Source: Candidatus Levybacteria bacterium RIFCSPHIGHO2_01_FULL_36_15
Lineage (GTDB): Bacteria > Patescibacteriota > Microgenomatia > Levybacterales > GWA1-39-11
DNA: 37,210 bases
Assembly: GCA_001782015.1 (NCBI GenBank)
Contig: MFNJ01000036.1
Location: 14,044 to 51,253, forward strand
Direction of reading: 5' to 3'
Made by a program: the position numbers and the translations under genes
The notes under the pieces: model-generated
Told to the model about the DNA's origin: nothing
Database searches by the model: none
Seen by the model: only the letters and a program-made list of their open reading frames with translations
Shown: positions 1 to 35,264 of the stretch, in pieces
How the letters are laid out: each line of letters starts with the position of its first letter
Position numbering within the stretch: position 1 is the stretch's first letter

Positions 1-425
1 GCCAAACCTGAAAATAACAGTACAAGGAGTATTTCATCAGGTATAATTCCAAACTTAAGATCCGTGAAAAAAATAACTATTAAGCAAAAAGCTATAACAG
101 AGAACAGGAAAAATAAGACAACATTAATTATTCCTGAAAAGAAAAGAAAAAAAAGATAGGCAAAAATTGTGCCGGTTATAAGTTCAACAAAAAAAATTCT
201 TGCGGGAATAATGCTTTTACAATACCTGCATTTCCCAAACAAAAAAAGATAAGAAAAAACAGGGAATAAGTCATACCATTTTAGTGTCTTTTTGCAGCTT
301 TCACACCTTGATCTTGATATCAAAAGGGGCAGATTATTTGGCAACCTATCAATTACTACATTTAAAAAACTACCAAATGAAGAACCAAATATAAAAACCA
401 GAAAATAGACAATAGTAGATATCAT
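1..425 (-). CDS. pilD: Prepilin peptidase (A24 family), N-terminal part, cut by window edge
   Basis: This is the membrane aspartic peptidase that removes the leader from type IV prepilins and N-methylates the new first residue. About 141 residues are visible, from an ATG at 425 running off the left edge. The N-terminal helix is followed by the family motif GSFLNVVIDRLP, then the zinc-type pair CESC and CRYC about 25 residues apart, then membrane helices, then TDLKFGIIPDE, which matches the first catalytic aspartate region of A24 peptidases. The second aspartate lies outside the window. It sits 75 bases downstream of a pilin gene on the same strand and may be co-transcribed with it. An AGAGGT lies about 16 bases before the ATG, which is far for a ribosome site. 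The family call is firm; only completeness is unknown. Confidence 0.93.
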   Translation of the reverse strand, partial: MISTIVYFLVFIFGSSFGSFLNVVIDRLPNNLPLLISRSRCESCKKTLKWYDLFPVFSYLFLFGKCRYCKSIIPARIFFVELITGTIFAYLFFLFFSGIINVVLFFLFSVIAFCLIVIFFTDLKFGIIPDEILLVLLFSGL

Positions 426-2074: not shown

Positions 2075-3796
2075 ATGGATAACAACCAACCATCTAATGA
2101 AACTAAAACTGTCGCGGATATTCTACTCAGAGAACACGTACTTGATCAATCAAAATATACCCAGCTTAAACTTGAAGCCATAAAGAAAAATATTGACATA
2201 GACAAGTTGCTGCTTGAATCAAAAGCTGTTAGTGAAGAAAAGTTTTATGAAGCAAGAGCAAAATTAATCGGTATTCCTTTTATCTCTGTGGCAACTCTTC
2301 CTTTTATGCCCGAGGCCTTAAGCAGTGTTCCCAAAGCACTGGCCGAAAAATTTAGTCTGGTGCCTTTCTCATTTGACAAAGAAAATAACACACTCTCAGT
2401 GGCTATGATTGATCCTTTGGACATTGAAGCGGTTAATTTCTTAAGGCAAAAGACAAATCTTTTGGTAAAAGTTTTTCAGGGAATACCTTCGGAAATAGAT
2501 ACCGCTATACAGGCAGAATATAACATTGGCCTGGTTGGTGAAGTGAAGGAAGCGCTAAGGGAAACAGAGCAGGCCGTAAAAACCTTTGATAAGGAAAGCA
2601 TTAATCAGGTAATCAAGGAAGCCCCTATTGCCAAAATAGTTTCAACAATACTTGAGTACGCGATGAAAAGCAGAGCTTCCGATATACATATAGAACCGCA
2701 GGAGGATAGAGTAAGAGTAAGGTACAGAATTGACGGAATATTATATGAAAGGTTGTCTTTGCCAAAAGGCGTGCAGGAGGCAGTTACCTCAAGAATCAAA
2801 ATACTTTCAGGCATGAAAATAGATGAACACAGGATCCCTCAAGACGGCAGGTTTAACTTCAAAATAAGCAGTCAGGAAGTAGATTTAAGGGTAAGTGCGC
2901 TTCCAATTGTATTTGGGGAAAAAATAGTTATGAGGTTGCTAAGTAAATCCGGAGGAATCCCTACACTTGTAGAACTGGGACTTAGAGGATCTTCGCTGAA
3001 AAATCTCCAGGATGCAATTTTGAGACCCCATGGAATAATCATTGTCTGCGGACCTACGGGTTCCGGAAAAACCACAACTCTTTACTCAGTACTTTCAAAA
3101 ATAAATACCACAAAGGTAAATATCTCAACGCTTGAAGATCCTGTTGAATATCAGCTTCCAGGCATAAACCAGGTGCAAATAAACACAGATGTAGGACTTA
3201 CTTTCGCAAACGGACTAAGGTCTTTTCTGCGGCAAGATCCAAATATTATATTGGTTGGAGAAATAAGAGACAAGGAAACAACAGAACTTGCTATACAGGC
3301 AGCCTTAACGGGGCATTTGGTTTTTTCAACCGTTCACACGTCAAGCGCGGCAGGTACTCTCCCAAGGCTCATTGATATGGGAGCAGAAACTTTCCTTCTT
3401 GCATCAACTATGACGGCGGTTCTTGCACAAAGGATAGCAAGAAAGATTTGCACCAATTGTAAAATTGAATATATTCCTCCTCAGGAAATTATACTTGAAA
3501 TAAAAAAGAACCTTGGAGATTTATTGCCAAAAGACAAAAGTGAAGAATTTAGATTATATAAAGGAAGGGGCTGCGACTCCTGCGGGAATTCAGGATACTA
3601 TGGAAGAGTTGGAATATTTGAACTTATGGTAATAAGTGAAAAAATAGAAAAATTAATTTTGCAAAAAGCGGACGCCCTGACTATTGAAAATATGTCAAAA
3701 AACGAAGGAATGATTACTATGAAACAGGACGGATATCTTAAAGCAATTGAGGGGGTTTCTACAATAGATGAAATTCTGAGAGTAGCACAAGAATAA
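2075..3796 (+). CDS. pilB: Type IV pilus assembly ATPase PilB (first copy)
   Basis: A 573-residue hexameric secretion ATPase that powers pilin polymerisation from the cytoplasmic face. An N-terminal GspE/MshEN-type domain spans about residues 10-150, followed by the N2 domain with SRASDIHIEP (199-208) and the RecA-like core. The Walker A motif is GPTGSGKT (326-333), the Asp box is STLEDPVEY, Walker B is IILVGEIRD (391-399) and the His box is TGHLVFSTVHT (412-422). The zinc-binding Cys pairs CTNC (459, 462) and CDSC (500, 503) are complete. It leads a pilB-pilT-pilC cluster. No clear ribosome site precedes the ATG; palindromic repeat copy A ends just upstream. Confidence 0.96.
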   Translation: MDNNQPSNETKTVADILLREHVLDQSKYTQLKLEAIKKNIDIDKLLLESKAVSEEKFYEARAKLIGIPFISVATLPFMPEALSSVPKALAEKFSLVPFSFDKENNTLSVAMIDPLDIEAVNFLRQKTNLLVKVFQGIPSEIDTAIQAEYNIGLVGEVKEALRETEQAVKTFDKESINQVIKEAPIAKIVSTILEYAMKSRASDIHIEPQEDRVRVRYRIDGILYERLSLPKGVQEAVTSRIKILSGMKIDEHRIPQDGRFNFKISSQEVDLRVSALPIVFGEKIVMRLLSKSGGIPTLVELGLRGSSLKNLQDAILRPHGIIIVCGPTGSGKTTTLYSVLSKINTTKVNISTLEDPVEYQLPGINQVQINTDVGLTFANGLRSFLRQDPNIILVGEIRDKETTELAIQAALTGHLVFSTVHTSSAAGTLPRLIDMGAETFLLASTMTAVLAQRIARKICTNCKIEYIPPQEIILEIKKNLGDLLPKDKSEEFRLYKGRGCDSCGNSGYYGRVGIFELMVISEKIEKLILQKADALTIENMSKNEGMITMKQDGYLKAIEGVSTIDEILRVAQE

Positions 3797-4007: not shown

Positions 4008-5075
4008 ATGGAAATAAAGGAGTTATTGGATAAAACTATACAAAATAATGCCTCTGACTTGCACTTTTTAGCTGGAATGCCTCCAATACTAAGAGTAGAT
4101 GGAAGATTAATGCTTTTGGCGTCTATTCCAGCCCTCACAAAGGTAATTATAGAAGACATGTTATTTTCCATTCTTACTGAAGACCAGAAAGAAATACTTA
4201 TAACCAATAAGGGCATAGATTTTTCTTTTGGCTACGGAGGCGGGAATTACGGTGACAAAGGCAGATTCAGAATAAACCTTTACTATCAGCGGGGAACGCT
4301 GGCAGGAGCCTTCAGACTTCTTCCTCCCAAAATCAAAACCATAGAAGAATTAAAGCTCCCTAAAATTTGCCACAAGTTTGCGGAATTAAAGCAAGGTTTT
4401 GTTTTAGTAGCAGGCCCTACAGGACACGGAAAATCAACCACAATTGCATCCATCGCAAATGAAATAAATATGAGTAAATCCGCGAATATAATTACAATCG
4501 AAGATCCCATAGAATATGTATATCCAAAAGGGAAAAGTATTATCTCCCAAAGAGAACTCGGAGTAGATACGCTTTCCTGGGATGAAGCTTTAAGATCTTC
4601 TTTAAGAGAAGATCCGGACGTTGTTATAGTTGGAGAGATGCGGGATCCGGAAAGTATCGCATCAGCAATTACCATAGCAGAAACCGGTCATTTGCTCTTT
4701 TCAAGTCTTCATACAAACTCGGCAGCACAAAGTATCGACAGAATGATTGACGCTTTCCCGGAACATCAGCAAAATCAAATTAGAGCACAGCTTTCAAGCA
4801 CAATCGAAGGAATAATATCGCAAAGACTGCTTCCCAAAATTGACGGCGGAAGAATAGTTGCAACGGAGGTACTTATAGGGACAAACGCGGTAAGATCAAA
4901 TATCAGAGAAGGTAAGACTCATCTCATAGATTCTGTCATAGAAACCTCGCAGGATGTTGGAATGATACCACTTGAGGCGTCTCTGGCGCACCTTGTTAAA
5001 GATGGACAAATAACCCTTGAGGCAGCCAGAGGCTACTCAATGAGAGAAAAAGAATTATTAAGACTTATTGGATAA
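4008..5075 (+). CDS. pilT: Pilus retraction ATPase PilT
   Basis: A 355-residue retraction ATPase of the PilT/GspE superfamily that disassembles the pilus. The N-terminal PAS-like domain contains NASDLHFLAG at 14-23. Walker A is GPTGHGKS (136-143), the Asp box is TIEDPIEY, Walker B is VVIVGEMRD (206-213) and the His box is TGHLLFSSLHT. The C-terminal AVRSNIREGK (294-303) corresponds to the AIRNLIRE motif that marks PilT and is needed for retraction. Length is normal for PilT. It is the only PilT in the window, although there are two PilB/PilC pairs. The start has no strong ribosome site; the upstream DNA is T-rich. Confidence 0.96.
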   Translation: MEIKELLDKTIQNNASDLHFLAGMPPILRVDGRLMLLASIPALTKVIIEDMLFSILTEDQKEILITNKGIDFSFGYGGGNYGDKGRFRINLYYQRGTLAGAFRLLPPKIKTIEELKLPKICHKFAELKQGFVLVAGPTGHGKSTTIASIANEINMSKSANIITIEDPIEYVYPKGKSIISQRELGVDTLSWDEALRSSLREDPDVVIVGEMRDPESIASAITIAETGHLLFSSLHTNSAAQSIDRMIDAFPEHQQNQIRAQLSSTIEGIISQRLLPKIDGGRIVATEVLIGTNAVRSNIREGKTHLIDSVIETSQDVGMIPLEASLAHLVKDGQITLEAARGYSMREKELLRLIG

Positions 5076-5180: not shown

Positions 5181-8391
<3,211 letters not shown>

Positions 8392-15327: not shown

Positions 15328-17421
15328 ATGGAAAAAATCTACATTAACAAAAGAGTTTTTATCTACACAGCCGCCGCTTTCTTTCTCTTTTTTTTAAGAA
15401 TTGTTGCTACCTTTTCCTTTTCATGGTTTCTGAGCGGAAAACTCCAGGAAATTATTCAAATTATTTCAGCTGTACTTGCTCTAATTATCTGCGTAATGGC
15501 GCTAACTCGATATTATGCTAAAAAAGACACTACATTCCTTTTTATTGCTACCGCTTTTTTGGGAACATTCATTTTTGACAGTTACAACGCTATAATAGCC
15601 AATTCATCTGGTGGCTTGAACCTATTCCCGCTACCAAAATCTCTTGGTTATTTAAGCTGGATCAGTTCAAAACTTTATTTATCCTTAATTTTATTTTTAA
15701 GCTGGTGGTTGTGGAGAAGGGAAGAAAAAGATTCTAAACAAAGAAAAATAAGCGAGTCTCATATCTATCTAACTTCATCAATATTAATACTTGGTATTTT
15801 TATTTTTTTCAATTTTACTCCACTTTTAATCAAAAATCATTTTATAATTTCACAACCACATGAACTTTTAGAATTAATACCGGCTTTATTGTTTTTACTT
15901 TCCTTAGCTGGATATATAAACAAAAAATATTGGAAAGCTGATTATTTTGAGCATTTTTTAATACTTTTCATAATAATAAATCTGGCAGTTCAGACAATAT
16001 TTATACCGTTTTCTACAGAGTCTTTTGATGTGTACTTTTATTTTGCCATCCTTTTGAACATCGTAGGATATATTATTGTCTTAATTGGACTAATAACTGA
16101 TACCTACAAACTTTATAAACAAACTGAGCAAAGTGAAGAACTTTTAATTTCACAAAATTTAAGCTTGAAAGAAACCAGAATCCAGTATGAAGAAGCATTG
16201 AAAAATTCTTTGCTGAAAGAAACTGAACTTTCATCAAAAATACAAGATCTGGAAAACACAAAGAAAGCAATATTTAATCTCAATCAGGACTTAAACGAAG
16301 AAAATCTAAAGGTTGAAAAAGCAAAAGCAAAAGATGAAGCTTTTTTATCAAGTATCGGAGACGGAATGATTATTGGTGATGAAGAAGGAAATATTTTAAT
16401 GACGAACGACCAGGCAAAAAAAATGCTGGATTATAATGAGACAGATCTCGTTGGGAAAAAATTATCTGAAGTGATACAAATGAAGGATGATAAAGGTGAT
16501 ATCGTACCGCCTGAGAAACGTCCAATACAACTTGCATTATCATCCGGTAAAAAAATCGTCAACAATGCGTATTCTTATATACGAAAGAACGGAACAATAA
16601 TTCCGGTAGCCATTACCGCATCACCAGTCATACTGAATAACCAAATAGAAGGTACAATAATAGTTTTTAGAGATATCGCAAAAGAAAAAGAAGTTGACCG
16701 TATGAAAACGGAGTTTATCTCTCTTGCATCACACCAACTCAGAACTCCACTTTCGGCTATAAGATGGTATTCTGAAATGCTGTTGGACGGAGACGCGGGA
16801 CAACTTAATAAAGAACAGAAAGAATTTACCAGAAATATTGATGAATCTACAAAAAGAATGTTTGAACTGATAAACGCGCTCCTTAATATTTCAAGAATTG
16901 AATCAGGAAGAATCATTATTGATCCAGAACCTACAGATCTGGTCCAACTTGTACACGACCTTCTAAATGAACTTAAACCTAAGCTTGAGCTGAAAAAACA
17001 AAAGCTTATTATAAGCCAGCATGAAAACTTACCTAAAATAAATATAGATCCAAAACTAATAAGGCAGGTATATTCAAATTTACTAACTAACGCAATTAAA
17101 TACACCAAAGAAGAAGGGGAAATCTCTGTTTTTATCTCAAAAAAAGATAACGAAATTATTTCACAGGTGAGTGATAATGGTTACGGAATACCTGAAAAAG
17201 ATATTAATAAGATATTTCAAAGGTTTTACCGGGGAGAAAATATTGTTAAGATAGAAACTGATGGAACAGGACTTGGTCTTTATCTTATAAAAGCAATAAT
17301 CGAATCTTCAAAGGGCAGGATTTGGTTCAAAAGCGAGGAAGGAAAAGGTACAACCTTCTGGTTTAGCCTGCCGATCTCCGGAACGCCACCTAAAAAAGGT
17401 GAAGTTACGATAGATACTTGA
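15328..17421 (+). CDS. Seven-helix PAS histidine kinase
   Basis: A 697-residue membrane sensor kinase. About seven hydrophobic helices occupy residues 10-258, resembling integral-membrane sensor modules of the MASE type, though the exact family is not recognised. A coiled coil follows (265-335), then a PAS domain (about 335-450, ending [15 protein letters not shown]), HisKA with the phospho-accepting His469 in [16 protein letters not shown], and HATPase_c with the N box [10 protein letters not shown] (Asn588), G1 DNGYGIP (616-622), F box FQRFYRG and G2 GTGLGLYL (646-653). All catalytic boxes are intact. It is flanked by a GAF protein and two receivers, its likely partners. No output domain is attached, so the signal must leave through the receivers. 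Confidence 0.92.
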
Positions 17422-17454: not shown

Positions 17455-17859
17455 ATGGATAATCAAAAATATACAGTAATGGTTGTTGAAGATGAAGCAT
17501 TGCTTCTTCAGGCAATCGAGAAAAAATTGAGATTAAGCGGTATCTCAGTGATTTCCTGCGCAGGCGGCAATCAAGCAATAGAGTACTTGCGGACTTTCCA
17601 GAAACTGCCCGATGCCATCTGGCTCGATTATTATTTAAGAGACATGTCAGGATTGGATTTGGTAAATGAGATCAAAAAAGATGAAAAACTCATAAAGATT
17701 CCAATAGTAGTTATCAGCAACTCCGCCAGCGAAAACAAGGTCAAAACATTACTGGCGCTGGGAGTAAAAAAGTATCTGCTTAAATCAGAGTACAGACTGG
17801 ATGATATAATCGAAATTGTACGCAAAATAATAGATGAAAAAGGTAAAGTTGTTTCTTAA
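17455..17859 (+). CDS. Stand-alone response regulator receiver
   Basis: A 134-residue CheY-like receiver without an output domain. The acidic pair is in VVEDEA (Glu12, Asp13), the phospho-acceptor is Asp58 in AIWLDYYL, the switch serine is Ser88 in VVISNS and the conserved lysine is Lys110 in KKYLLKSE. It starts 33 bases after the histidine kinase and is followed by a second receiver. Lacking DNA-binding or enzymatic output, it probably works by protein contact, as CheY or PilG/PilH-like receivers do. The neighbouring pilus ATPase pilB2 is a plausible target, which is inference from position only. Confidence 0.9.
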   Translation: MDNQKYTVMVVEDEALLLQAIEKKLRLSGISVISCAGGNQAIEYLRTFQKLPDAIWLDYYLRDMSGLDLVNEIKKDEKLIKIPIVVISNSASENKVKTLLALGVKKYLLKSEYRLDDIIEIVRKIIDEKGKVVS

Positions 17860-17902: not shown

Positions 17903-18271
17903 ATGAAAAAAATACTGGTCGCAGAGGATGATAAATATCTGGCAAATGCGTATAGGGTAAAACTGACCAAAGCAGGATACGAAGTCAAGATTGTAGGAGA
18001 CGGACAAGAAGCCTTATCTGCCCTAAAAGATTTCGTTGCAGATATCATTCTTCTTGATCTTGTCATGCCTGTAAAAGATGGTTTTACTACGCTGGAAGAA
18101 TTAAAGGGAAATGAAAAATGGAGATCCATTCCAGTAATCATTGCTTCAAATCTTGGACAAAAAGAAGATCTAGAAAAAAGTTTGAAACTTGGTGCAAATG
18201 ATTTCATAATAAAAAGCGATATGACTTTAAATGATCTGATTTCCAAAGTCAACTCCATACTTGGCGGCTAA
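17903..18271 (+). CDS. Stand-alone response regulator receiver (second)
   Basis: A 122-residue CheY-like receiver: acidic pair in VAEDDK (Asp9, Asp10), phospho-acceptor Asp52 in ILLDLVMP, and conserved lysine in DFIIKSD. PVKDG after the acceptor and the IASN switch region are typical. No output domain. It differs clearly from the receiver just upstream, so this is not a recent duplication. Two single-domain receivers beside one kinase suggest either a phosphorelay sink or two separate targets, as with paired CheY or PilG/PilH proteins. pilB2 starts 69 bases downstream with its own promoter. Confidence 0.9.
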   Translation: MKKILVAEDDKYLANAYRVKLTKAGYEVKIVGDGQEALSALKDFVADIILLDLVMPVKDGFTTLEELKGNEKWRSIPVIIASNLGQKEDLEKSLKLGANDFIIKSDMTLNDLISKVNSILGG

Positions 18272-18340: not shown

Positions 18341-20041
18341 ATGCTCGCTTATAATGACCAATCGCTTTACGGAGTTTTAAAAGAACTGGGAATAATTGAT
18401 CAAAAAGAACTGGATCAAGCACTTCTAGAAAGCAAAGGCCAAAACACCACGCTTTATAATATATTACTTACAAAAGATCTTATATCTGACGAGAATCTAG
18501 GCAAAACAATTTCCGAACTGTTATCCATACCCTTGTCACGCCTCTCTGAAATTTCTATTCCAAATGATGTTCTAAATACAATTCCCGAAATTGTAGCAAG
18601 AAAACAAAAAATCATCGCATTCAAAAAAGATAAAGATGGTCTGCATCTTGCTATGGCCAACCCAAATAATCTGGAAATGGTTGAGTTTGTGAAAAAAAAG
18701 GTTGGACTTCCGGTAACGGTATATTATGCGACCGAACGTGACATAGAAAATGCCTTTCCTCTTTACTCCAAAGAAGTTACTGTAGCTTTTGATGAAATAA
18801 TTGCCAAAAACGTACAGCAGGCAAAAGGAGTTGAAAAAGCTGAGCCTCCTATCATTAATATCGTAGATACAATAATTAGCTACGCCTATCAAAATAAAGC
18901 TTCGGATATTCACATAGAACCCCTAAAAGACACGTCCTTGGTCCGCTTCAGAATTGACGGCATTTTACATGATATTGTTAACCTGCCGCTTGAACTGCAT
19001 CAGCGAATGGTGACAAGAGTAAAAGTTCTTTCCAAACTTCGTACAGATGAGCATCAGGCAGCTCAGGATGGAAAGTTTCAGTACAATACGCAAAATGAAA
19101 ATCTGGATATCCGTGTATCCATTGTTCCTTCAACACATGGAGAAAAAATAGTTATGAGACTTCTATCTGAAAGATCCAGACAATTTTCCCTTCTTGATCT
19201 GGGATTTTCTGGATACAATTTGGTAAAAATGAAAACAGCTTATGAAAAACCATACGGCATGATTCTTTCTACCGGCCCCACAGGCTCAGGTAAAACAACA
19301 ACAATGTATGCCATCCTAAAGCTTCTTAACAAAAGAGATATTAACATTATGACTATAGAGGACCCGGTAGAATATGAAATTCTGGGAATAAATCAAATAC
19401 AGGTTAACCCAAAAACCAATCTTACCTTTGCAGACGGCTTAAAAAGTATTCTTAGACAAGATCCTAACGTTATTTTAGTAGGAGAAATCAGAGATAATGA
19501 AACAGCTGATATTGCGATCAACTCCGCAATGACGGGACATTTAGTGCTTTCAACGCTACACACCAATGATGCCACAACTGCTATTCCAAGACTCGTAGAT
19601 ATGCAGGTTGAACCTTTTTTAATGGCTTCAACAATTAATATTATTATTGCCCAAAGGTTAGTAAGAAAAATTCATACAGTCTGCCGCGTAAGTCGCGAAG
19701 TGACAATAGAAGAAATTTCTAAAGAGTTAAACGAAACAACTCTGAAAAAAGCTTTCAGCAACTTGATCATCAACAAAGAAGGTAAAAAAACAATCAGAAT
19801 TTATCAGGGCAAAGGATGCCAACTGGACCACGATACAGGATATGAGGGTAGAATAGGCATATTCGAGCTGTTGATAATTGATGATGAAATAAGACAAGCA
19901 ATACTGGACAAAAAAGACGCATCTACTGTTAGGAAAATCGCCATAAAAAACGGAATGATAACAATGCTTGAAGACGGACTTGAAAAAGTAAAGGAAGGCG
20001 TAACAACAATTGAGGAAGTAGTTCGAGTAACAAAGGAGTGA
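18341..20041 (+). CDS. pilB: Type IV pilus assembly ATPase PilB (second copy)
   Basis: A 566-residue paralogue of the PilB at 2075-3796. An N-terminal MshEN-like region (1-145) is followed by NKASDIHIEP (185-194), Walker A GPTGSGKT (312-319), the Asp box TIEDPVEYE, Walker B VILVGEIRD and the His box TGHLVLSTLHT. The zinc site is altered: the first pair reads HTVC (His445, Cys448) and the second CQLD (Cys493, Asp496), where the first copy has CxxC and CxxC. His and Asp can also bind zinc, so a site may survive. It leads the second pilus locus, with pilC2 33 bases downstream, and lies just after two receiver genes. Confidence 0.95.
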   Translation: MLAYNDQSLYGVLKELGIIDQKELDQALLESKGQNTTLYNILLTKDLISDENLGKTISELLSIPLSRLSEISIPNDVLNTIPEIVARKQKIIAFKKDKDGLHLAMANPNNLEMVEFVKKKVGLPVTVYYATERDIENAFPLYSKEVTVAFDEIIAKNVQQAKGVEKAEPPIINIVDTIISYAYQNKASDIHIEPLKDTSLVRFRIDGILHDIVNLPLELHQRMVTRVKVLSKLRTDEHQAAQDGKFQYNTQNENLDIRVSIVPSTHGEKIVMRLLSERSRQFSLLDLGFSGYNLVKMKTAYEKPYGMILSTGPTGSGKTTTMYAILKLLNKRDINIMTIEDPVEYEILGINQIQVNPKTNLTFADGLKSILRQDPNVILVGEIRDNETADIAINSAMTGHLVLSTLHTNDATTAIPRLVDMQVEPFLMASTINIIIAQRLVRKIHTVCRVSREVTIEEISKELNETTLKKAFSNLIINKEGKKTIRIYQGKGCQLDHDTGYEGRIGIFELLIIDDEIRQAILDKKDASTVRKIAIKNGMITMLEDGLEKVKEGVTTIEEVVRVTKE

Positions 20042-20074: not shown

Positions 20075-21151
20075 ATGAAACAAGCTGCTCAAATTCATTT
20101 TTCTTCAAAAGTAAGCTTTTTAGAAAAACTATTATTCACAAAACATTTATCTATAATGACCAAAAGCGGTATCACGCTATCTGAAGCAATATCAACACTC
20201 GTCAATCAGGCAAAATCAAGCAAGTTTAAAAAGGTTTTACAAGATGTACTGGCAGACATAGAAAACGGACAATCATTTGCCAAATCTTTAGCAAAATATC
20301 CTAAAATTTTTGACCAATATTACATAAGTTTGATCGAGGTTGGTGAGGAAACGGGAAAACTTGACAAAAATCTTGATTTTTTAGTCCAGCAACTTGGAAA
20401 GGATTACACCTTGCGTAAAAAAATTCAAGGCGCACTGCTTTATCCTGGGATCGTGCTTTTTACCACTCTTATAATGGGCTTTTTTATTTCAATTTTCATT
20501 TTGCCTAAACTTGTTGATTTCTTCAATGCTTTTGAAATGGACTTGCCCATTACAACCAGAATATTAATCGCAGGCGCAAATATTTTCAAGAACTACGGTA
20601 CCTTAATTGTTGCGGGTTTAGTGGCAACATTTTTTATCGGTTCGATGCTTTTCAATTTGCCTAGCATAAAACCTAAATGGCATGAATTTATACTCAAGCT
20701 TCCATTTTTGGGCAATTTACTTATATACAGTCAGTTGACCCGTTTTTCAAGAAATCTGGGGGTACTCATTCAAAGCGGAATTCCAATTGTACAAAGCCTG
20801 GATACGACCGCCAATACAATTTCAAACTTAAAATTCCAAAAAGATCTTCAGGAAGTTGCCAAATCCGTAACCCGCGGTAAAAATATTTCTGACGTTCTTT
20901 CAGAAAAAGGGTTCGATGAGTTTCCAATAATGGTAGTCAAAATGATAGAAGTAGGTGAAAAAACCGGAAAACTTGATGAAACATTACTGTATCTGGGAGA
21001 TTTTTATGAAGATGAGATTGATGACGTGTCTAAAAATCTGTCAACTCTTATTGAGCCAGTATTACTAGTTTTTATAGGACTAGTTGTGGGATTCGTAGCA
21101 CTGGCAGTTATAGGCCCGATTTATCAATTTATGGGAGGTATGGGCCGATAA
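20075..21151 (+). CDS. pilC: Type IV pilus platform protein PilC (second copy)
   Basis: A 358-residue GspF-family platform protein, shorter than the first copy because it lacks most of the N-terminal extension. Two GspF domains are visible: EKLLFTKHLSIMTKSGITL with ENGQSFAKSLAKYP and VGEETGKLD, then LTRFSRNLGVLIQSGIPIV with VTRGKNISDVLSEKG and VGEKTGKLDE. Three membrane segments lie near 122-147, 170-193 and at the C-terminus (LVFIGLVVGFVALAVIGPIY). It pairs with pilB2 just upstream and precedes four minor-pilin genes, so the locus contains a full assembly motor of its own. Confidence 0.95.
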   Translation: MKQAAQIHFSSKVSFLEKLLFTKHLSIMTKSGITLSEAISTLVNQAKSSKFKKVLQDVLADIENGQSFAKSLAKYPKIFDQYYISLIEVGEETGKLDKNLDFLVQQLGKDYTLRKKIQGALLYPGIVLFTTLIMGFFISIFILPKLVDFFNAFEMDLPITTRILIAGANIFKNYGTLIVAGLVATFFIGSMLFNLPSIKPKWHEFILKLPFLGNLLIYSQLTRFSRNLGVLIQSGIPIVQSLDTTANTISNLKFQKDLQEVAKSVTRGKNISDVLSEKGFDEFPIMVVKMIEVGEKTGKLDETLLYLGDFYEDEIDDVSKNLSTLIEPVLLVFIGLVVGFVALAVIGPIYQFMGGMGR

Positions 21152-21202: not shown

Positions 21203-21739
21203 ATGAAGGAATTTATAATAAAAAAGCTTTCCGGAAAACAACTTTTTCAATACTCTTACTCTCTTTGCCAATACCTGCATAAACTCAGTTACAGAGTAAG
21301 CCGCGCGGTTTTAAATACTGGATTTACCCTTGTTGAACTGCTTATTATTCTGGCAATAATTATGACCATAGGGTTTTCAACAATACCTTTTTCCACGAAC
21401 TTCTTAACAAGAAGCGATTTGAGTAATAAAACACACGAACTATCACTTCTGCTTAATACAGCAAAACTGAATAGCATTTCCGCAAAAGAGAACAGCAACT
21501 GGGGAGTGAATATTTTGTCTAGCACATTTACCCTATATAAGGGAAATTCATTTATGAATCGTGATCCTGCCTTTGACCAGTCTTTCGGTATCCCGATAAA
21601 TATTACTATTACCCAAAATGACATTAATTTTGAAAAATTGACCGGAAATACTAATTCTGTAAATTTAGTGTTAAGAAATGCTATAAACGAAACTCACACT
21701 GTAACTGTTAACCAGGTTGGAACAATCGACATACAATAA
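21203..21739 (+). CDS. Minor pilin / pseudopilin, GspH-like, with long leader
   Basis: A 178-residue pilin-like protein. The cleavage motif is NTG-FTLVELLIILAI, with Gly40 before Phe41 and Glu5 of the mature protein at residue 45. The leader is 40 residues, much longer than the usual 5-15, and carries several Lys/Arg. No ATG, GTG or TTG lies between 21203 and the cleavage site in this frame; only a CTG at codon 25 could shorten it. The mature part resembles GspH/FimT (NKTHELSLLLNTAKLNSISAKENSNWGV). It is followed after three bases by the next pilin gene, so the minor pilins are translationally close. Confidence 0.82.
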   Translation: MKEFIIKKLSGKQLFQYSYSLCQYLHKLSYRVSRAVLNTGFTLVELLIILAIIMTIGFSTIPFSTNFLTRSDLSNKTHELSLLLNTAKLNSISAKENSNWGVNILSSTFTLYKGNSFMNRDPAFDQSFGIPINITITQNDINFEKLTGNTNSVNLVLRNAINETHTVTVNQVGTIDIQ

Positions 21740-21742
21740 AAT

Positions 21743-22621
21743 ATGAGATCTGAACCTAACGACCTAAGAGGGCAATCATTGATAGAAATTATTATTGCGG
21801 TTTCAATCCTAATTATTGTGGCAACCTCACTCATATTTACAGTTTCGGGATCTTTTTCAACTACACGTTTAGGAAAAGAGCAGACTCAGGCTACTTTTCT
21901 TGCAGATGAAGGAATGAACGCGGTCAATTCAATAAGAAACCAGAATTTTAATAGTCTTATAAATGGAGATCATGGCTTATCTAATTCAGGCGGCATATGG
22001 TCTTTTTCAGGAACTTTTGATAAGGATGCAAGTGGAAAATATACCCGGATAGCAACAATTTCTGATGTATTAAGAGACGGTAACGGAGATATTGCTGCAA
22101 GCGGAGGGACTATTGATCCTTCCACAAAGAAAATAACACTAAGAGTTTCCTGGTATTTTACTCCAACAAGAAATAACAATGTTCAACTTGAGCAATATTT
22201 CACTAACTGGCAAACATCAGAATCCAAAGGAACAAATGGCCACTGCAGCTTACAGGCCAATTGTTTGGCTTTAAACACTTCTTCCGCGCATCTTATAACA
22301 AACGGAACTCAGATAGCCGGGATAACTCTTGGTAATTTTGACCCTACAGCAAGCATAAACCTAAACAGGATTACAGCTTCCTGGACCGGGAGTGCTAGCA
22401 TAAGAATGAATAAAATCAGAATAAACGGAATAGACGTCTGGACGGGCTCGGTAAAATCGGGAAATACGGTAACTATTTCTAATGTTTCTTTAAATCCGGA
22501 TACCAGGAACGTTCCCATAGATTTTATTCAATTTTCAAGAAACATAACCGGCTCAACGGTAAACATTACATTTATAATGTCAGATAATTCGTCTTGGGCG
22601 GCGCCGGCGATTAATTTATGA
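21743..22621 (+). CDS. Minor pilin, GspI/PilV-like, with C-terminal domain shared with the next gene
   Basis: A 292-residue prepilin-like protein: leader MRSEPNDLRG, then QSLIEIIIAVSILIIV with Gly10 before Gln11 and Glu5 at residue 15. The first mature residue is Gln instead of Phe. A pilin-like body follows (to about 160), with a short Cys-containing linker (HCSLQANC). A separate C-terminal domain (about 184-285) contains SWTGS, RINGIDVWTGS and NITFIMSDNS, and aligns along its whole length with the C-terminus of the next protein. Its stop overlaps the next start (ATGA). It is probably exposed at the pilus tip, by analogy with minor pilins. Confidence 0.85.
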   Translation: MRSEPNDLRGQSLIEIIIAVSILIIVATSLIFTVSGSFSTTRLGKEQTQATFLADEGMNAVNSIRNQNFNSLINGDHGLSNSGGIWSFSGTFDKDASGKYTRIATISDVLRDGNGDIAASGGTIDPSTKKITLRVSWYFTPTRNNNVQLEQYFTNWQTSESKGTNGHCSLQANCLALNTSSAHLITNGTQIAGITLGNFDPTASINLNRITASWTGSASIRMNKIRINGIDVWTGSVKSGNTVTISNVSLNPDTRNVPIDFIQFSRNITGSTVNITFIMSDNSSWAAPAINL

Positions 22622-23502
22622 AAAAATTAAGACCAAAATCAGGTTTTACTTTAGTTGAACTTCTTATTTATATTAGTCTGGTCAGCATATTTGTCAGCGG
22701 GGCAATTTCTTTTATGCTGAATGTGCTTTCAACAAGAGAAAAAGTTTATCAACAACAGACTGTGGAACAAAATGCCCGTGCTGCTATTGCTCGAATAGCT
22801 TATGAAATAAGAAGAGCTAATAATATTCAAGGCATTTCTTCCGATGAATTAACCTTAAATAACGAATCTTCAAATACCATAATATCTTTGATATCTGGAA
22901 GAATCCAAATCACAACAGGAGGCACTGGGCCTTATTATTTGACCTCAAACCAAATTAATGTTTTGTCTCCACCTGATGCGCCCAAACCGCTTTTTACCAA
23001 TCTTAGCACAACAAACAAGAACAGCAAGAATATTCTAGTATCTGTTACAGCAAGCAATATTCCAAGTTTTTATGGTACAAGATATAAAGCCCTCATAACA
23101 TCAAACCAATCAACAGAGATAAATGGACAGTTTAATGCAGCTAGAATGCTTCTTATGAATGCATCAGGAGCTCTACTGTCCAATGATAACCGGCAAATAA
23201 CAAATACTACTTTGCAAAACTCAGGTAGTACGGATATAACTATCAGTAATATTACTATTTCCTGGACAGGCGGAGTAGCGGCAAGCAGATTAACAAGCGT
23301 GACGATAAACGGCAGTAATGCCTGGACTGGATCAGCCGCATCCGGAACTGCTATTCCCATTAATAATGGTATTATTAGAGCGAGTAATCCAGCGGTTAGC
23401 ATTATTTTTAATTTCAACAACAGCATGGCCGGAGCAGTTTTTAATATTATTTACACAATGACTGACTCTTCAACCAAAAATACGACTATTTCTTTTAATT
23501 AA
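22618..23502 (+). CDS. Minor pilin, GspJ/PilW-like, with the shared C-terminal domain
   Basis: A 294-residue prepilin-like protein: leader MKKLRPKSG, cleavage after Gly9, then FTLVELLIYISLVSI with Glu5 at residue 14. The EQNARAAIARIAYEIRRANNI helix region is typical of GspJ/PilW. The C-terminal domain (about 187-294) carries ISWTGGV, TINGSNAWTGS and NIIYTMTDSS, matching the preceding protein's C-terminus. The start codon overlaps the previous stop as ATGA, indicating translational coupling. The PilX-like gene follows after one base. Family by N-terminus and order is fairly secure; the function of the C-terminal domain is unknown. Confidence 0.85.
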   Translation: MKKLRPKSGFTLVELLIYISLVSIFVSGAISFMLNVLSTREKVYQQQTVEQNARAAIARIAYEIRRANNIQGISSDELTLNNESSNTIISLISGRIQITTGGTGPYYLTSNQINVLSPPDAPKPLFTNLSTTNKNSKNILVSVTASNIPSFYGTRYKALITSNQSTEINGQFNAARMLLMNASGALLSNDNRQITNTTLQNSGSTDITISNITISWTGGVAASRLTSVTINGSNAWTGSAASGTAIPINNGIIRASNPAVSIIFNFNNSMAGAVFNIIYTMTDSSTKNTTISFN

Positions 23503-23503
23503 A

Positions 23504-23911
23504 ATGATTAACAACAATAAAAGCAAAAACGGCTATATTGCTCTTATAAGCATTTTGATAATATCTACTGTTACCTCAGCAATAGCCCTATCTCTTTCGC
23601 TTCTGGGAATAAATGAAGCAAAAAACTCTTTAGGATTAAAAAAAGGATACGAAACACTAAAAATAGCTGAAGGTTGCGCAGAAGAAGCTCTTTACCGCCT
23701 GAAAAATAATCAGACTTACAGCGGTACCATAGCCCCGTTGAATGTGGGTAATGGTTCATGTACAATAACTATAAGCGGTGCCAATCCGACTTATACTATT
23801 TTGATAAATGCTGTGCTGCCAGAAAAACCAAGCTATGCTAAGAGCTTGCGTTTGACCGTAGTAGCAGTCGGGAAGGATATTAATATCACCAGTTGGCAAG
23901 AAATACAATAG
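23504..23911 (+). CDS. Minor pilin, PilX/GspK-like
   Basis: A 135-residue protein with leader MINNNKSKNG followed by YIALISILIISTVTSAIAL. The fifth mature residue is Ile instead of Glu. Lack of Glu5 is known for GspK, the pseudopilin that caps the tip complex. The AEGCAEEALYRLK segment (about 55-67) is typical of PilX proteins. It is the fourth consecutive pilin-like gene and starts one base after the preceding stop. The order H-I-J-K/X matches the minor-pilin order in type II secretion and type IV pilus operons. Confidence 0.8.
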   Translation: MINNNKSKNGYIALISILIISTVTSAIALSLSLLGINEAKNSLGLKKGYETLKIAEGCAEEALYRLKNNQTYSGTIAPLNVGNGSCTITISGANPTYTILINAVLPEKPSYAKSLRLTVVAVGKDINITSWQEIQ

Positions 23912-23934: not shown

Positions 23935-25389
23935 ATGTTATCAATCGATATTTCTGAGAAATTTATTAACATCACAGATATTGGGAAAAACTACTTAGGA
24001 AAATACAACTTTAAACTTATAAAACAAATAGAAATAAAAGAGGGGGAGAAATGGGAAAGTAAAATTTCAGAATTACCAAAAAATGAAAAAGTCTCTCTCG
24101 TCGTACCGGATACCGAAGTATTTCTCTATCGTTTTGATGTAAACCCCAAATTAACAGGCAGACTACTGATCGCAACGATTTTAGACAAAATAAGTAAAGT
24201 TATCCCGGCTGCGCCAGATGACCTAGCATATGATTTTGAAATGAAACAAACCGGCCTCCAGTCATCATGTATCATCTTTATAGCTATAACGCGGGAAAAA
24301 CTATCTTTATACCAAAAGGCATTTAAAACAATTAATATTACGCCTGAATTAATAGTTCCTGAATCTTTAGTAAACTTTGAAGTTTTCAAAAATGACGATC
24401 CGGCTGACCAAGTTATTTTATATCTTGAAGTAAATGAAAAAATTTTAAAGTTTGCTTTTTTTGATAAATACGGGCCGTTGCTGACTCTTTTTGAAGTTTT
24501 AAATCCATTAACTATGGAGGAAATAATTAAAAAATCTATTCTTTTTTTTAAAGATAAATATGGGAAAAATGTTGACAAAATAATTCTTGGAGGAGACAAA
24601 GTCACCATTACAGATTCAGACAAACTGGGAAAAATTGTAAATGTTCCAATCATTAAAAGCAATCAAGTTTTTGAAAAAAAAGTCCAAGAACTAGGAATAA
24701 ACTTTAATAATCAACAACAAATGCTGTTTATTAAAGCTTTAGGCGTAAACTTATTACTCCTTCAAAAAGAAATACCAAATTTAGCCAAAAAAAGCGTTCT
24801 AACTTTTTCTGATAAATCAAAGGGTGAAACTGCAGTTCCTGATATGCTTTTGAAAAATAACATTGCAGATGAAAAACGTAAAGATTTGGCAAAAGAAACA
24901 TATTCTTCTGAAAACAAAAAGCCTGAAAACAAAAGGTTAATATTCTTAATTTTTATTTTTATAATTTCTCTTATTTTAACTTCAAGCGCTATTGCTTCAA
25001 AATTTTTAGTAAAGCAAAATACCGGTACCGTTCCCAAAATCAAAGCTAAATCGAAAGTTAAATCACCTTCCAAAAAAATTATTCCTTCCTCAACGCCCCC
25101 TTCTCTTGAAAAACAAAGTGTTAAAATCGAAGTCCTGAATGGAAGCGGTAAAGCGGGAAGCGCAACGGTTCTTTCAGACTATCTTAAAAACAAAGGTTAT
25201 GAAAACATAAAAACGGCCAATGCGGAAGATTTTTCCTACAAAGGTATAACTCTACAAATCAAGGAGGACAAAAAGAATTACCTTGAATCTTTAATAAATG
25301 ATTTAAAAGATCAATACCAGATAAGTACAGCCTCAGCTTTCATTGACAAAGACAGCGATTTTGATGTTATACTGATAGTGGGAGGATAG
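23935..25389 (+). CDS. PilM/GspL-like protein fused to a LytR_C domain
   Basis: A 484-residue protein of unusual build. Residues 1-280 resemble the actin-like cytoplasmic part of PilM/GspL: MLSIDISEKFINITDI at the first phosphate-loop position, SLVVPDTEVFLYRF, ITREKLSLYQKAF, a DKIILGGDK strand and FIKALGVNLL. The nucleotide loop is degenerate. A charged linker leads to one membrane helix (about 335-353), then a Lys/Ser/Pro-rich stalk, then a LytR_C domain (about 396-484) starting VKIEVLNGSGKAGSATVLSDYL. GspL has the same order with a ferredoxin-like periplasmic domain; here LytR_C takes that place. It follows the minor pilins, so it probably links motor to envelope. The PilM call is by pattern and is moderate; the LytR_C call is good. 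Confidence 0.78.
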   Translation: MLSIDISEKFINITDIGKNYLGKYNFKLIKQIEIKEGEKWESKISELPKNEKVSLVVPDTEVFLYRFDVNPKLTGRLLIATILDKISKVIPAAPDDLAYDFEMKQTGLQSSCIIFIAITREKLSLYQKAFKTINITPELIVPESLVNFEVFKNDDPADQVILYLEVNEKILKFAFFDKYGPLLTLFEVLNPLTMEEIIKKSILFFKDKYGKNVDKIILGGDKVTITDSDKLGKIVNVPIIKSNQVFEKKVQELGINFNNQQQMLFIKALGVNLLLLQKEIPNLAKKSVLTFSDKSKGETAVPDMLLKNNIADEKRKDLAKETYSSENKKPENKRLIFLIFIFIISLILTSSAIASKFLVKQNTGTVPKIKAKSKVKSPSKKIIPSSTPPSLEKQSVKIEVLNGSGKAGSATVLSDYLKNKGYENIKTANAEDFSYKGITLQIKEDKKNYLESLINDLKDQYQISTASAFIDKDSDFDVILIVGG

Positions 25390-25392
25390 AAA

Positions 25393-25869
25393 ATCAATTC
25401 CAACAACTTAATCAAAAAACCTGCCGGTTTTACTCTTATTGAACTTCTTGTTGTTATGGGAATAATAACAACTCTAACAACATTTATTGTTGTTTCCCTA
25501 GATCCTGTAACTAGATTTGCCCAAGCAAGGAACAGTAGACGAATAACAGATATAGATTCCATTTTAGTGGCGATTCAAGAATATATTGTTGACAACAACG
25601 GAGATCTTGCTTCAACCGGAGTTACCACCACGGAAAAACAGCTTGGAACGTGTCTGTCCGGAGGAAACACGGCTTGTAGTGACGCGGCGGCGGATTGCCT
25701 TAATCTCACAAGTACTCTTTCCAAATATTTAAAGTCTATTCCTATAGATCCAAACGGCACAAGCGAGTTCACAGGTTATTCAGTAGTCACCGACTCAAAC
25801 AATATTATTACAGTCACAGCATGTAAAACCGAAGCACCGGAAACGACTCCTCTTTCAGTCTCAAGATAA
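25393..25869 (+). CDS. Type IV pilin with apparent ATC start codon
   Basis: A 158-residue prepilin if translation begins at the ATC at 25393. The leader would be MNSNNLIKKPAG, then FTLIELLVVMGIITTL, with Glu5 in place. The frame is open from the TAG of the preceding gene (25387-25389), but no ATG, GTG, TTG or CTG occurs before Met at 25456, which lies inside the hydrophobic helix and would destroy the signal. GGAGG at 25381-25385 is seven bases before ATC, an ideal spacing. After the helix come DPVTRFAQARNSRR and four cysteines (GTCLSGG, TACSD, DCLN, ACKTE), as in the pilin at 501-1061. Sequence error or read-through of the TAG are the alternatives. Confidence 0.82.
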   Translation: MNSNNLIKKPAGFTLIELLVVMGIITTLTTFIVVSLDPVTRFAQARNSRRITDIDSILVAIQEYIVDNNGDLASTGVTTTEKQLGTCLSGGNTACSDAAADCLNLTSTLSKYLKSIPIDPNGTSEFTGYSVVTDSNNIITVTACKTEAPETTPLSVSR

Positions 25870-25886: not shown

Positions 25887-26609
25887 CTATTCTGATGGAG
25901 TAGTGCCATAAATTGTTATCGGAGTACCGGGATTGCTGTCTGAAGCATAAGTGGTTGAATTGGAAACTTGGGGATCTGACCAACGGTATATTTTTTCAGC
26001 ATCTTCAGTCTTCATGTTAACGCACCCATGACTCATGGGGTGGCCAAAATTATCATGCCAGTATGCTCCATGCAAACCAAAACCCATTGTTTTTGGAATT
26101 TCATCATTATAAAAATACATTGTATAGGGAACATTGGGCAGATTATAATATGTACCCAGAGCCGAATCCCCTCCTGCCATACGGGTGTATCTAAGCTTAA
26201 TCCAAATATTAAAGCGTCCGGTTGGAGTATGGCGCCATTTTCCGGAAGAAATTAAGAAACTATAAATAAGTTTATTTCCTTCATATGCGTATAAGACTTG
26301 ATTTGTAAGATCAATATAAATGTGCTTATTTTGATCGGTGCGCGTCCCAAGCAAAGCGCTTCCTTTTAAAATATTAGTCGCAAGAACAGGAGATATAACT
26401 TTTTTCCCCATAAAATTACCCATACTATCAGTACTTGCTTTTCCTGATAAATCCTTGATGCAACTTATTGAATTAGCGCATTCTTCTTTTACAGGAACTT
26501 TAATTGCGGGAGAAAAAAGCATTAAACTACCCAAGAGTAAAACAAGCGCTGGAAGTGCAATCAGCAAAATTAAACGCTTAGAAAAAAATTTCTCTTTTAT
26601 GTTCTGCAT
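25887..26609 (-). CDS. L,D-transpeptidase (YkuD family), membrane-anchored
   Basis: A 240-residue cell-wall enzyme that cross-links peptidoglycan stems through 3-3 bonds or attaches partners to them. An N-terminal helix (12-33) anchors or exports it. The YkuD domain covers about 96-235, starting KHIYIDLTNQVLYAYEGNK. The active-site motif is HGAYWHDNFGHPMSHGC, with His180, Ser193, His194, Gly195 and catalytic Cys196. PTGRFNI and the SSGK strand are also typical. It is convergent with the ATC-start pilin and divergent from the VanW-like gene. The start at 26609 gives a basic-hydrophobic N-terminus, as expected. Confidence 0.94.
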   Translation of the reverse strand: MQNIKEKFFSKRLILLIALPALVLLLGSLMLFSPAIKVPVKEECANSISCIKDLSGKASTDSMGNFMGKKVISPVLATNILKGSALLGTRTDQNKHIYIDLTNQVLYAYEGNKLIYSFLISSGKWRHTPTGRFNIWIKLRYTRMAGGDSALGTYYNLPNVPYTMYFYNDEIPKTMGFGLHGAYWHDNFGHPMSHGCVNMKTEDAEKIYRWSDPQVSNSTTYASDSNPGTPITIYGTTPSE

Positions 26610-26720
26610 ATTCTCTAATTATTAAATCATAAAAAAGGAGAAAGTTCATCCCTAATCTACAACCTTATGAATGGATGTATGGACGCGGAAAAGATGTCTG
26701 CCAAAACAACGGTATTATGC

Positions 26721-26749
26721 TTGATTTGAGTCTTATAGTGTGATATAAT
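26721..26749 (+). promoter_or_regulatory. Promoter of the VanW-like gene
   Basis: TTGATT (26721-26726), 17 bases, TATAAT (26744-26749), with TG one base before the -10 (TGATATAAT). The ATG is at 26788, leaving a leader of about 32 bases. One of the best promoters in the window. Confidence 0.7.
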
Positions 26750-26787
26750 CATACTCTTATCGAGATAGGCATAAACCTATATTAAAT

Positions 26788-27456
26788 ATGGTAAACGAAG
26801 CTATTTTTACAGTAGCCGCTTTTTCACTCCTCACTTTCAATACATACCTAATAACCCCACCAGAGGCTCCCACCGTACAGGAGCGTGTTCTGGTCACGCG
26901 TGAGATTTCTTTGGAAGAAAGATATGCTGATAAATTCGTGAATGATGTATTCAAGGACAACATCCTTTTGACCATGGCCTATCTTAGAGGTGAGAAGATA
27001 GACTCCACCAACGTTGACTGGAACTTGGTGAAAAAACCTTTTAGCTTCAAAATGGGGCTAAAACCGGGAAAAACTTTTGCTTTTCATGAAGATATCCTGC
27101 CTGAGTATCTGGATAAGGTAACTAAAACCACAGGATCTCGCTTCAATTACCAGGATGGATTCAAGTCTGATGGCTATTTAACAGGTGATGGCGTGTGCCA
27201 TCTGGCCTCACTCATAAACTGGGCCGCAGCTGATGCAAACCTAAATGTAAAAGCTCCCACCAATCATGATTTTGCTGTTATACCCGGCGTTCCCGGAAAA
27301 TTCGGTACATCTATTTATGTAGGGTCAAACCAAACCGGTGCGAATGCCCTGCAAAACCTTTATGTAACCAATAATTATAATAAGCCGATTATTTTTGCAT
27401 TCAGTTATGACGGGAAAATACTCAAGCTTAGCGTTGCTGAGGTAGCCTTTAATTAA
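26788..27456 (+). CDS. VanW-like exported protein
   Basis: A 222-residue protein with a short hydrophobic N-terminus (about 4-22) likely to be a signal or anchor. The VanW-like core shows LKPGKTFAFHEDI (about 90-102), GYLTGDGVCHLASLINWAAADANL and NHDFAVIPGVPG, matching the family pattern PGxxFSF ... GGGVCQxST ... H. Variation from GGGVCQ to GDGVCH is noted. The molecular role of VanW is not established; it is found with cell-wall genes, and here it is next to an L,D-transpeptidase. Own promoter, no co-directional neighbour downstream. Confidence 0.83.
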   Translation: MVNEAIFTVAAFSLLTFNTYLITPPEAPTVQERVLVTREISLEERYADKFVNDVFKDNILLTMAYLRGEKIDSTNVDWNLVKKPFSFKMGLKPGKTFAFHEDILPEYLDKVTKTTGSRFNYQDGFKSDGYLTGDGVCHLASLINWAAADANLNVKAPTNHDFAVIPGVPGKFGTSIYVGSNQTGANALQNLYVTNNYNKPIIFAFSYDGKILKLSVAEVAFN

Positions 27457-34406: not shown

Positions 34407-35264
34407 TTATCTTAATACAGGCAGGATAAATTCTGAAGCATAGTCCTGCCCTATGACAATTGTTATATCGGAAACTGAAACCTCATTTCTCTGCTCAACC
34501 GGCATGCTGAGATAATTTTTTAATTTCTTGGCTGTGTAGCTGTCTTTGTCAATTCTTACTATCATTTTTGAAGACATACTGTCTTCTGATGTTCTTATTG
34601 CAATCACATTACAACCCATGTTTTTAAGCATTTGGGCAAGTTTATTTCCCGCACCGCTCACATTTGAAGAGTTAACTACTTCAATGGTTATTTTTTCATT
34701 TATTATTTCATTATCTCTAAACAAATCATTAATTTTATTAAGTTTTTCCTCATTCTCGTCATTGATCACAAAAGACTGATCTTGAAAATCAAAAGAATTC
34801 AATAAATTTGTACTTAAATACATTTTAATAATATCAAAACTGTTAAGACCTGATATTTTCACTGAAGAATTATTGGATGCCAAAATAGAGAGATTTTTGA
34901 GTGAAAAAAAGTTCTTTATATCCGGGGATTGGCCATTTTTATATACAATAGTAGAATTCACGGGAACTTTAAAATAGTAGCCTAGTGTTTCTTTCGGATA
35001 ATTTAATATTTTTTTATCTACTTTTTCAAATCTAAGAGTGGAAATAAGAGAGTGATTTTTATTGATATTAATAAAATAAATATTTTTTCCAACCACAAGC
35101 AAGTTAAAATAATCATCGGAAAATTTGCTATTTTTTATTATAGAAGCTATCCGTAAACCTAAGGAAATAAATATAACCAAAACAAAAAAAAATAAAAATA
35201 TTTTAAGAATAAAATAATTGTTGCTGGCCGGAATTATTCTATGCGAAGTTTTATTTCTTTTCAT
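34407..35264 (-). CDS. Membrane-anchored LytR_C-domain protein
   Basis: A 285-residue protein with a basic N-terminus, one membrane helix (about 19-43), an extracytoplasmic region (45-190) of unknown fold and a C-terminal LytR_C domain (about 192-275) beginning ITIEVVNSSNVSGAGNKLAQML and ending VSDITIVIGQDY. The LytR-CpsA-Psr catalytic domain, which usually precedes LytR_C, is not recognisable: the middle part shows none of its arginine motifs. The start lies eight bases after the stop of the KefB-type gene, so the two form an operon. It shares the LytR_C domain with the PilM/GspL fusion at 23935-25389. A cell-wall-linked role is likely. Confidence 0.8.
   Translation of the reverse strand: MKRNKTSHRIIPASNNYFILKIFLFFFVLVIFISLGLRIASIIKNSKFSDDYFNLLVVGKNIYFININKNHSLISTLRFEKVDKKILNYPKETLGYYFKVPVNSTIVYKNGQSPDIKNFFSLKNLSILASNNSSVKISGLNSFDIIKMYLSTNLLNSFDFQDQSFVINDENEEKLNKINDLFRDNEIINEKITIEVVNSSNVSGAGNKLAQMLKNMGCNVIAIRTSEDSMSSKMIVRIDKDSYTAKKLKNYLSMPVEQRNEVSVSDITIVIGQDYASEFILPVLR

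Follow-up and report, generated by a model that had tools for sequence, protein, structure and literature searches.

In the window, the whole stretch of 37,210 nucleotides from Candidatus Levybacteria bacterium RIFCSPHIGHO2_01_FULL_36_15 that was analysed, a single gene encodes a protein of 484 residues in which a PilM-like actin fold, one membrane helix and a LytR_C domain are joined, and this gene takes up, in the operon of a second type IV pilus, the slot that PilM, PilN and PilO occupy in the canonical pilus cluster. Our preferred reading, to which we assign a probability of about 0.55, is that the fusion is the PilM plus PilN substitute or equivalent of the second pilus and would couple PilB2/PilC2 to LytR_C proteins of the envelope or to the wall. 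How monoderm pilus machines are anchored in the wall has been stated as an open question, with PilO as a speculated anchor (PMC6916266). Our literature search found no paper in which LytR_C and PilM occur together and none on LytR_C in Patescibacteria; the arrangement of PilM-like actin fold, helix and LytR_C appears to be new, whereas a PilM-PilN fusion and paired pilus systems were already known.

Architecture of the fusion protein

The reading frame of the fusion has exact boundaries and no internal stop. LytR_C, an envelope domain, was the only domain detected by Pfam (PF13399; E=3.1e-8, 34.9 bits versus a cut-off of 22.2), and no catalytic LCP domain was found. The N-terminal 390 residues of the single sequence matched no Pfam family, PilM_2 (PF11104) reached 8.4 bits, which is below its cut-off of 27, and the single sequence found no PilM in a sequence comparison. 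When a profile of 17 fusion proteins was used, the best four PDB matches were all PilM, from Myxococcus (3jc8, E=3.9e-14), Pseudomonas (5eox, 5eou) and Thermus (2ych), and the next ones were both solved LytR_C domains. A profile built on the N-terminal parts of five relatives, of which four are pilus-linked and none is the window fusion, also matched 3jc8 (E=3.7e-5).

The entire fusion was modelled with AlphaFold2 on an alignment of 61 rows, drawn only from the related loci that had been found. The model (mean pLDDT 78, mostly 80–90 in the actin part and about 92 in LytR_C) consists of the actin fold, a disordered linker, the helix, a further linker and a LytR_C domain that is well defined. 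Foldseek searches with this model returned PilM chains as PDB matches 1 to 10 (E 5e-16 to 8e-13), followed by FtsA and by GspL, the latter with its cytoplasmic part. The LytR_C domain modelled alone (pLDDT 94) matched Cei (6q10) and VirR (2m5y) with no other notable match. The idea that it is a disguised GspL/PilN ferredoxin domain, given a similar strand and helix order, was ruled out, as Foldseek found no match of the domain to GspL, PilN or PilO. The original prediction had claimed a PilM/GspL-like actin fold joined through a membrane helix to an outer LytR_C domain, in the order known from GspL, and had proposed structure prediction and a fold search as a check; Pfam, the profiles, AlphaFold2 and Foldseek bear out all of these points.

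The phosphate-1, phosphate-2 and adenosine motifs (DIGxxSIK, IGxxTT and GGxAKLPG) are absent from the window fusion and from 29 other aligned fusions, whereas most of the canonical PilMs encoded in these genomes keep them. GspL is likewise known to have lost its nucleotide-binding motifs. Degenerate versions of these motifs were also seen in four standalone Roizmanbacteria PilMs located beside PilN/PilO (L203, L205, L206 and L207).

Table 1. Features of the fusion protein, the second pilus operon and the canonical pilus genes in the window.
Feature	Position	Strand	Basis or remark
PilD prepilin peptidase, canonical, partial (continues left)	1..425	-	Relatives beside canonical pil genes in L193, L199-L201
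PilB1, canonical	2075..3796	+	
PilT, canonical	4008..5075	+	
PilC1, canonical	5181..6383	+	
Membrane PAS histidine kinase	15328..17421	+	Same position in L056
Response regulator	17455..17859	+	By sequence
Response regulator adjoining PilB2	17903..18271	+	PF00072; conserved in L056, L093, L264
PilB2 assembly ATPase	18341..20041	+	In clade of fusion-linked PilBs
PilC2 platform protein	20075..21151	+	Pfam
GspH/FimT-like minor pilin	21203..21739	+	
GspI/PilV-like minor pilin	21743..22621	+	
GspJ/PilW-like minor pilin	22618..23502	+	
PilX-like protein	23504..23911	+	Position and N-terminus; no informative Pfam match
Fusion gene, PilM-like actin fold - membrane helix - LytR_C	23935..25389	+	484 aa
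Fusion residues 1-277, PilM-like actin fold, nucleotide-binding motifs lost	23935..24765	+	AF2/Foldseek, profile, motif comparison
Fusion residues 278-331, low-confidence cytoplasmic linker	24766..24927	+	pLDDT <50
Fusion residues 332-359, single membrane helix	24928..25011	+	AF2; KKPENKR N-side of helix
Fusion residues 395-483, LytR_C	25117..25383	+	Pfam, AF2, Foldseek
Prepilin directly 3' of fusion	25390..25869	+	Homologous position in L056, L054, L093, L264

The second pilus operon and the canonical pilus set

The window belongs to a contig of 51 kb in a genome of 1.37 Mb. The second operon runs from a histidine kinase and response regulator through PilB2, PilC2 and four pilins to the fusion and a last pilin. 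Its slot after FimT-PilV-PilW-PilX holds the fusion alone, and no PilM, PilN or PilO gene lies within the operon (FimT-PilV-PilW-PilX-fusion-pilin), in contrast to the canonical cluster with its order FimT-PilV-PilW-PilX-PilM-PilN-PilO. The PilBs from fusion-linked operons, together with the PilB of a paralogous operon on contig C60, form one clade separate from PilB1 (98/98).

The contig of the fusion also carries a complete canonical pilus set, of which PilM/PilN/PilO (L038, 6624-8894) are located just left of the window and the canonical prepilins likewise outside it. The claim that no PilN or PilO gene is nearby is thus correct for the second operon but not for the contig, while the claim that no secretin gene is nearby extends to 12 genomes (this one and 11 relatives), in none of which a secretin was found. 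The suggestion that the fusion replaces the alignment complex agrees with its place in the PilM-PilN-PilO slot; however, canonical PilM, PilN and PilO and a second PilN-PilO pair are also encoded in the genome, which limits the suggestion to the second pilus.

The paralogous operon on contig C60 of the same genome (L264, 5115-13476) repeats this arrangement, with a LytR_C protein in the PilM-PilN-PilO slot: a response regulator, PilB, PilC and four pilins are followed by a LytR_C protein of 362 residues and a prepilin. In this protein the actin fold is reduced to its first half, followed by a membrane helix and LytR_C (E=1.8e-7), which indicates that a complete PilM-like interface is not always needed.

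An orphan PilN2-PilO2 pair was found on contig C50 of the same genome (L271, 4434-5659) beside murJ, the gene of the lipid II flippase. Further orphan PilN-PilO pairs were found at L272-L278 and L281; murJ and rpsT adjoin most of the pairs, most carry an INLLP-type N-terminus and none is adjoined by a PilM gene. The PilN2-PilO2 pair could be a partner of the fusion. As its specific partner it is not supported, because the PilO2 profile, some matches of which may be canonical PilO, has matches in 363 of 374 Microgenomatia genomes, whether or not a fusion was found there.

Three further observations concern the surroundings of the fusion gene. The prepilin 3' of it has no ATG, GTG or TTG ahead of its prepilin signal (25381-25456, KKPAGFTLIELLVVM); its frame is shared with the TAG of the fusion, and GGAGG stands 7 bases 5' of an ATC, so that there is either an unusual ATC start or a base error. 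Genes for an L,D-transpeptidase (YkuD) and a VanW-like protein (25887-27456) adjoin the second operon; no such pair was found beside the pilus operon at L056, L051 or L093. A second LytR_C membrane protein is encoded in the window at 34407-35264 (LytR_C E=2.5e-11), and Microgenomatia genomes often encode one or more LytR_C proteins, about 200 residues long, that consist of a helix, LytR_C and little else.

Distribution, descent and gene neighbourhoods of the family

A full-length fusion was found in about 60 of 374 Microgenomatia genomes, a set that includes Roizmanbacteria, Woesebacteria and Levybacteria; the count is a lower bound, since weak members (L050, L264) were recovered by other routes only. 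Outside Microgenomatia, the fusion occurs in at least 18 genomes in a survey of 380 genomes across the phylum, in which family f85 accounts for 16 genomes with unbroken matches and three with split ones, and f49 for two. In genome G369 the actin part and the helix-LytR_C part are in two reading frames (L097, 9257-9760 and 10137-10790), which is either a natural split or a frameshift. Three LytR_C proteins of comparable length near smpB (L044, 8167-9579; L047, 4184-5533; L048, 3992-5386) were left out because their N-terminal part is not PilM-like; by eye, this part looks like a PP2C-type phosphatase.

Canonical PilM was present in 22 of 22 genomes checked, which rules out the fusion as a stand-in for a missing PilM, and PilN and PilO adjoin the canonical PilMs whose neighbourhood was read, often along with PilB, PilT, PilC or PilD. 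A stand-in for a missing FtsA is likewise ruled out, as FtsA and FtsZ have separate genes in the genome of the window fusion (L210).

Two trees of the actin domain were calculated, with 30 and 36 fusions, 19 and 16 canonical PilMs, and two FtsAs. All fusions formed one clade on the PilM side, apart from canonical PilM and from FtsA (99/99 and 100/99, respectively); the actin domain of the fusion descends from PilM. The window fusion and L039, which are 30% identical, fall together close to the mraZ-linked group. Pilus-linked fusions stand on both sides of the basal split, and the pilus neighbourhood may therefore be ancestral for the family, although the support of the basal splits reaches only about 90/83.

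A possible trace of PilN is found immediately before the membrane helix. The motif N-[LIVM]-[LIM]-P stands there in 14 of 18 f85 fusions, which are relatives and not 14 independent events, versus 0.6% of random windows, and the canonical PilNs of these bacteria start with a similar INLLP-type motif. In the solved complexes 2ych and 5eou, PilM holds the PilN N-terminus that carries such a motif. This likeness suggests that the fusion took in the N-terminus and helix of PilN, and that LytR_C would have replaced PilN's outer domain. The motif is clear only in f85; the linker of the window fusion contains IPNLAKK, which resembles a PilN N-terminus weakly. A PilN-like docking peptide in this linker was not supported; the best match (GVNLLL) belongs to the actin fold, of which it occupies the final helix.

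Four kinds of neighbourhood were seen. The first is the pilus operon, in Microgenomatia at the window, L056, L054, L051 and L093, and outside them at L229, which belongs to another class (PilB2-PilC2-fusion), and at L267 (a PilX-like gene, then the fusion); in other Patescibacteria, too, this domain order is thus found next to pilB or to genes of the pilB operon, and at least four other genomes have the fusion in the order of the second-pilus operon. In the second kind, which corresponds to group f25 (L040, L041, L055, L106 and others), the fusion is located shortly 5' of the mraZ-rsmH-ftsL-ftsI-mur genes (L040, L041, L043, L055, L101, L102, L104, L106). In the third (L045 and most of f8, f38 and f43; mainly Roizmanbacteria in a contig scan), it heads a series of prfB, a small membrane protein, ftsE, ftsX and an EnvC/PcsB-like hydrolase, opposite dnaG-rpoD. 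The fourth is that of f85, where the fusion follows ftsA-ftsZ (L270, L268) or rodA/ftsW (L238, L239, L269) on their 3' side, or stands 3' of ileS, 5' of RNHCP-rplU-rpmA. A few fusions are solitary (L039, L050, L103). Pfam confirmed FtsW/RodA, FtsZ, FtsX, MraZ, MraW and PBP among the division and wall neighbours.

The majority of members adjoin division or wall-synthesis genes and not pilus genes, so the family as a whole is not a pilus-specific anchor. The chief rival to our reading follows from this distribution: the fusion would belong to a division or wall-growth family that works with FtsZ, FtsEX or a septal synthase, its place in the pilus operon being secondary, and the window copy would link pilus placement or the septal envelope to the divisome, or merely sit there. 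The division-linked groups f85, f8/f38 and f25 form three separate clades, a point in favour of this rival. However, the pilus-linked loci, the window included, have only two-component, PilB/PilC and pilin genes as neighbours, in conserved order and with no division gene, the genome has its own FtsA and FtsZ, and pilus-linked members occur in both basal branches of the tree, as would fit a pilus context that is ancestral. A division role is accordingly stronger for the whole family than for the window copy, for which we consider it unlikely.

Known systems and the proposed role of the fusion

The fusion shares with PilM (PF11104; 5eox, 2ych, 3jc8) its actin-like fold, the slot after a PilX-like gene and its descent. 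It nevertheless falls outside the PilM family, because it scores under the cut-off, misses the motifs, has no adjacent PilN/PilO and carries its own membrane helix and outer domain, whereas PilM is soluble. With GspL (1yf5, 4pht) it has in common the order of a cytoplasmic actin-like domain, one helix and an outer domain, and also the expected task of holding the assembly ATPase; it is outside this family as well, since its outer domain is LytR_C, of a fold unlike GspL's, and a secretin context is absent. As far as anatomy can tell, the fusion works like GspL, an arrangement that was apparently reached independently, starting from PilM.

A comparable construction is the PilM-PilN fusion of Clostridioides difficile (PMC6916266), also a monoderm, in which PilM is joined to the PilN end. 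The f85 fusions keep the PilN-like NLLP before the helix, but the fusion described here has LytR_C instead of the outer domain of PilN. TM7x has two pilus systems (PMC12206443), and its T4P-2 is, like the window operon, a second, PilT-less pilus of a patescibacterium; it differs by the separate pilM2, pilN2 and pilO2 genes that are reported for it. The solo LytR_C proteins Cei (Rv2700) and VirR (Rv0431) have a membrane helix and an outer LytR_C of the same fold, without a PilM-like domain. LCP (LytR-CpsA-Psr) proteins share LytR_C with the fusion, which does not contain their catalytic domain. FtsA has a related actin fold, and some relatives of the fusion stand beside ftsZ; however, FtsA has neither membrane helix nor LytR_C and the fusions group with PilM instead.

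The analysis shows the domain order, both folds, the descent, the loss of motifs, the slot and its recurrence; for the partners, topology and anchoring of the fusion as PilM plus PilN equivalent, we infer the following. The actin-like part would lie against the cytoplasmic side of the membrane, with PilB2, PilC2 or both as its expected binding partners; PilM and GspL bind comparable partners in their own machines. The single helix would span the membrane, and LytR_C would be located outside, where PilN and GspL have their ferredoxin-like domain, and could tie the machine either directly to the wall or to further proteins of the LytR_C/LCP type. The sole LytR_C interaction found in the literature is that of VirR's LytR_C with the LytR_C of LCP proteins (PMC11832169), which is why the anchor may be indirect. 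Several findings cast doubt on the fusion as a PilM plus PilN substitute: the canonical PilM-PilN-PilO and the orphan PilN2-PilO2 could serve the second machine, most family members stand beside division genes, the linker of the window fusion is modelled at low confidence and has no clear PilN peptide, and the C60 copy lacks the second half of the actin fold.

The same VirR interaction fits another explanation, in which the fusion is an accessory envelope scaffold whose LytR_C binds other LytR_C domains and whose degenerate actin part is no more than a sensor or plug on the cytoplasmic side, possibly one that the two-component system close by reads out. In favour of it are also the many short TM-LytR_C proteins, the window's other membrane protein with LytR_C, the loss of the nucleotide motifs and the loss of half the actin fold in the C60 copy. 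A plug alone, however, should not have kept a PilM fold that is still recognizable over long divergence and still in the PilM slot, and we regard this explanation as rather improbable. A merger of two genes by an assembly or sequencing error, which would have undone the original prediction, has virtually no probability left, as the architecture recurs in independent assemblies of Microgenomatia, of other classes and of two other families, and nothing in favour of an error was found.

The fusion brings a PilM descendant and a wall-associated domain together in one chain, which bears on the question of how monoderm pili are anchored. In three clades its relatives recur beside ftsZ, mraZ-ftsI and ftsEX, which suggests that pilus-type machinery and division are linked, in an as yet unrecognized way, in a very large and mostly uncultured group of bacteria. 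The fusion type has evidently been transferred between pilus and division neighbourhoods, which fits a general coupler, and the fusion may generally tie a membrane machine to the cell wall. We put forward only tentatively, with the odds somewhat against it, that one PilM/PilN-derived, LytR_C-tipped family works in the second type IV pilus as well as in the divisome or elongasome of Patescibacteria; if true, this would be a septal use of the PilM/FtsA actin fold besides FtsA itself.
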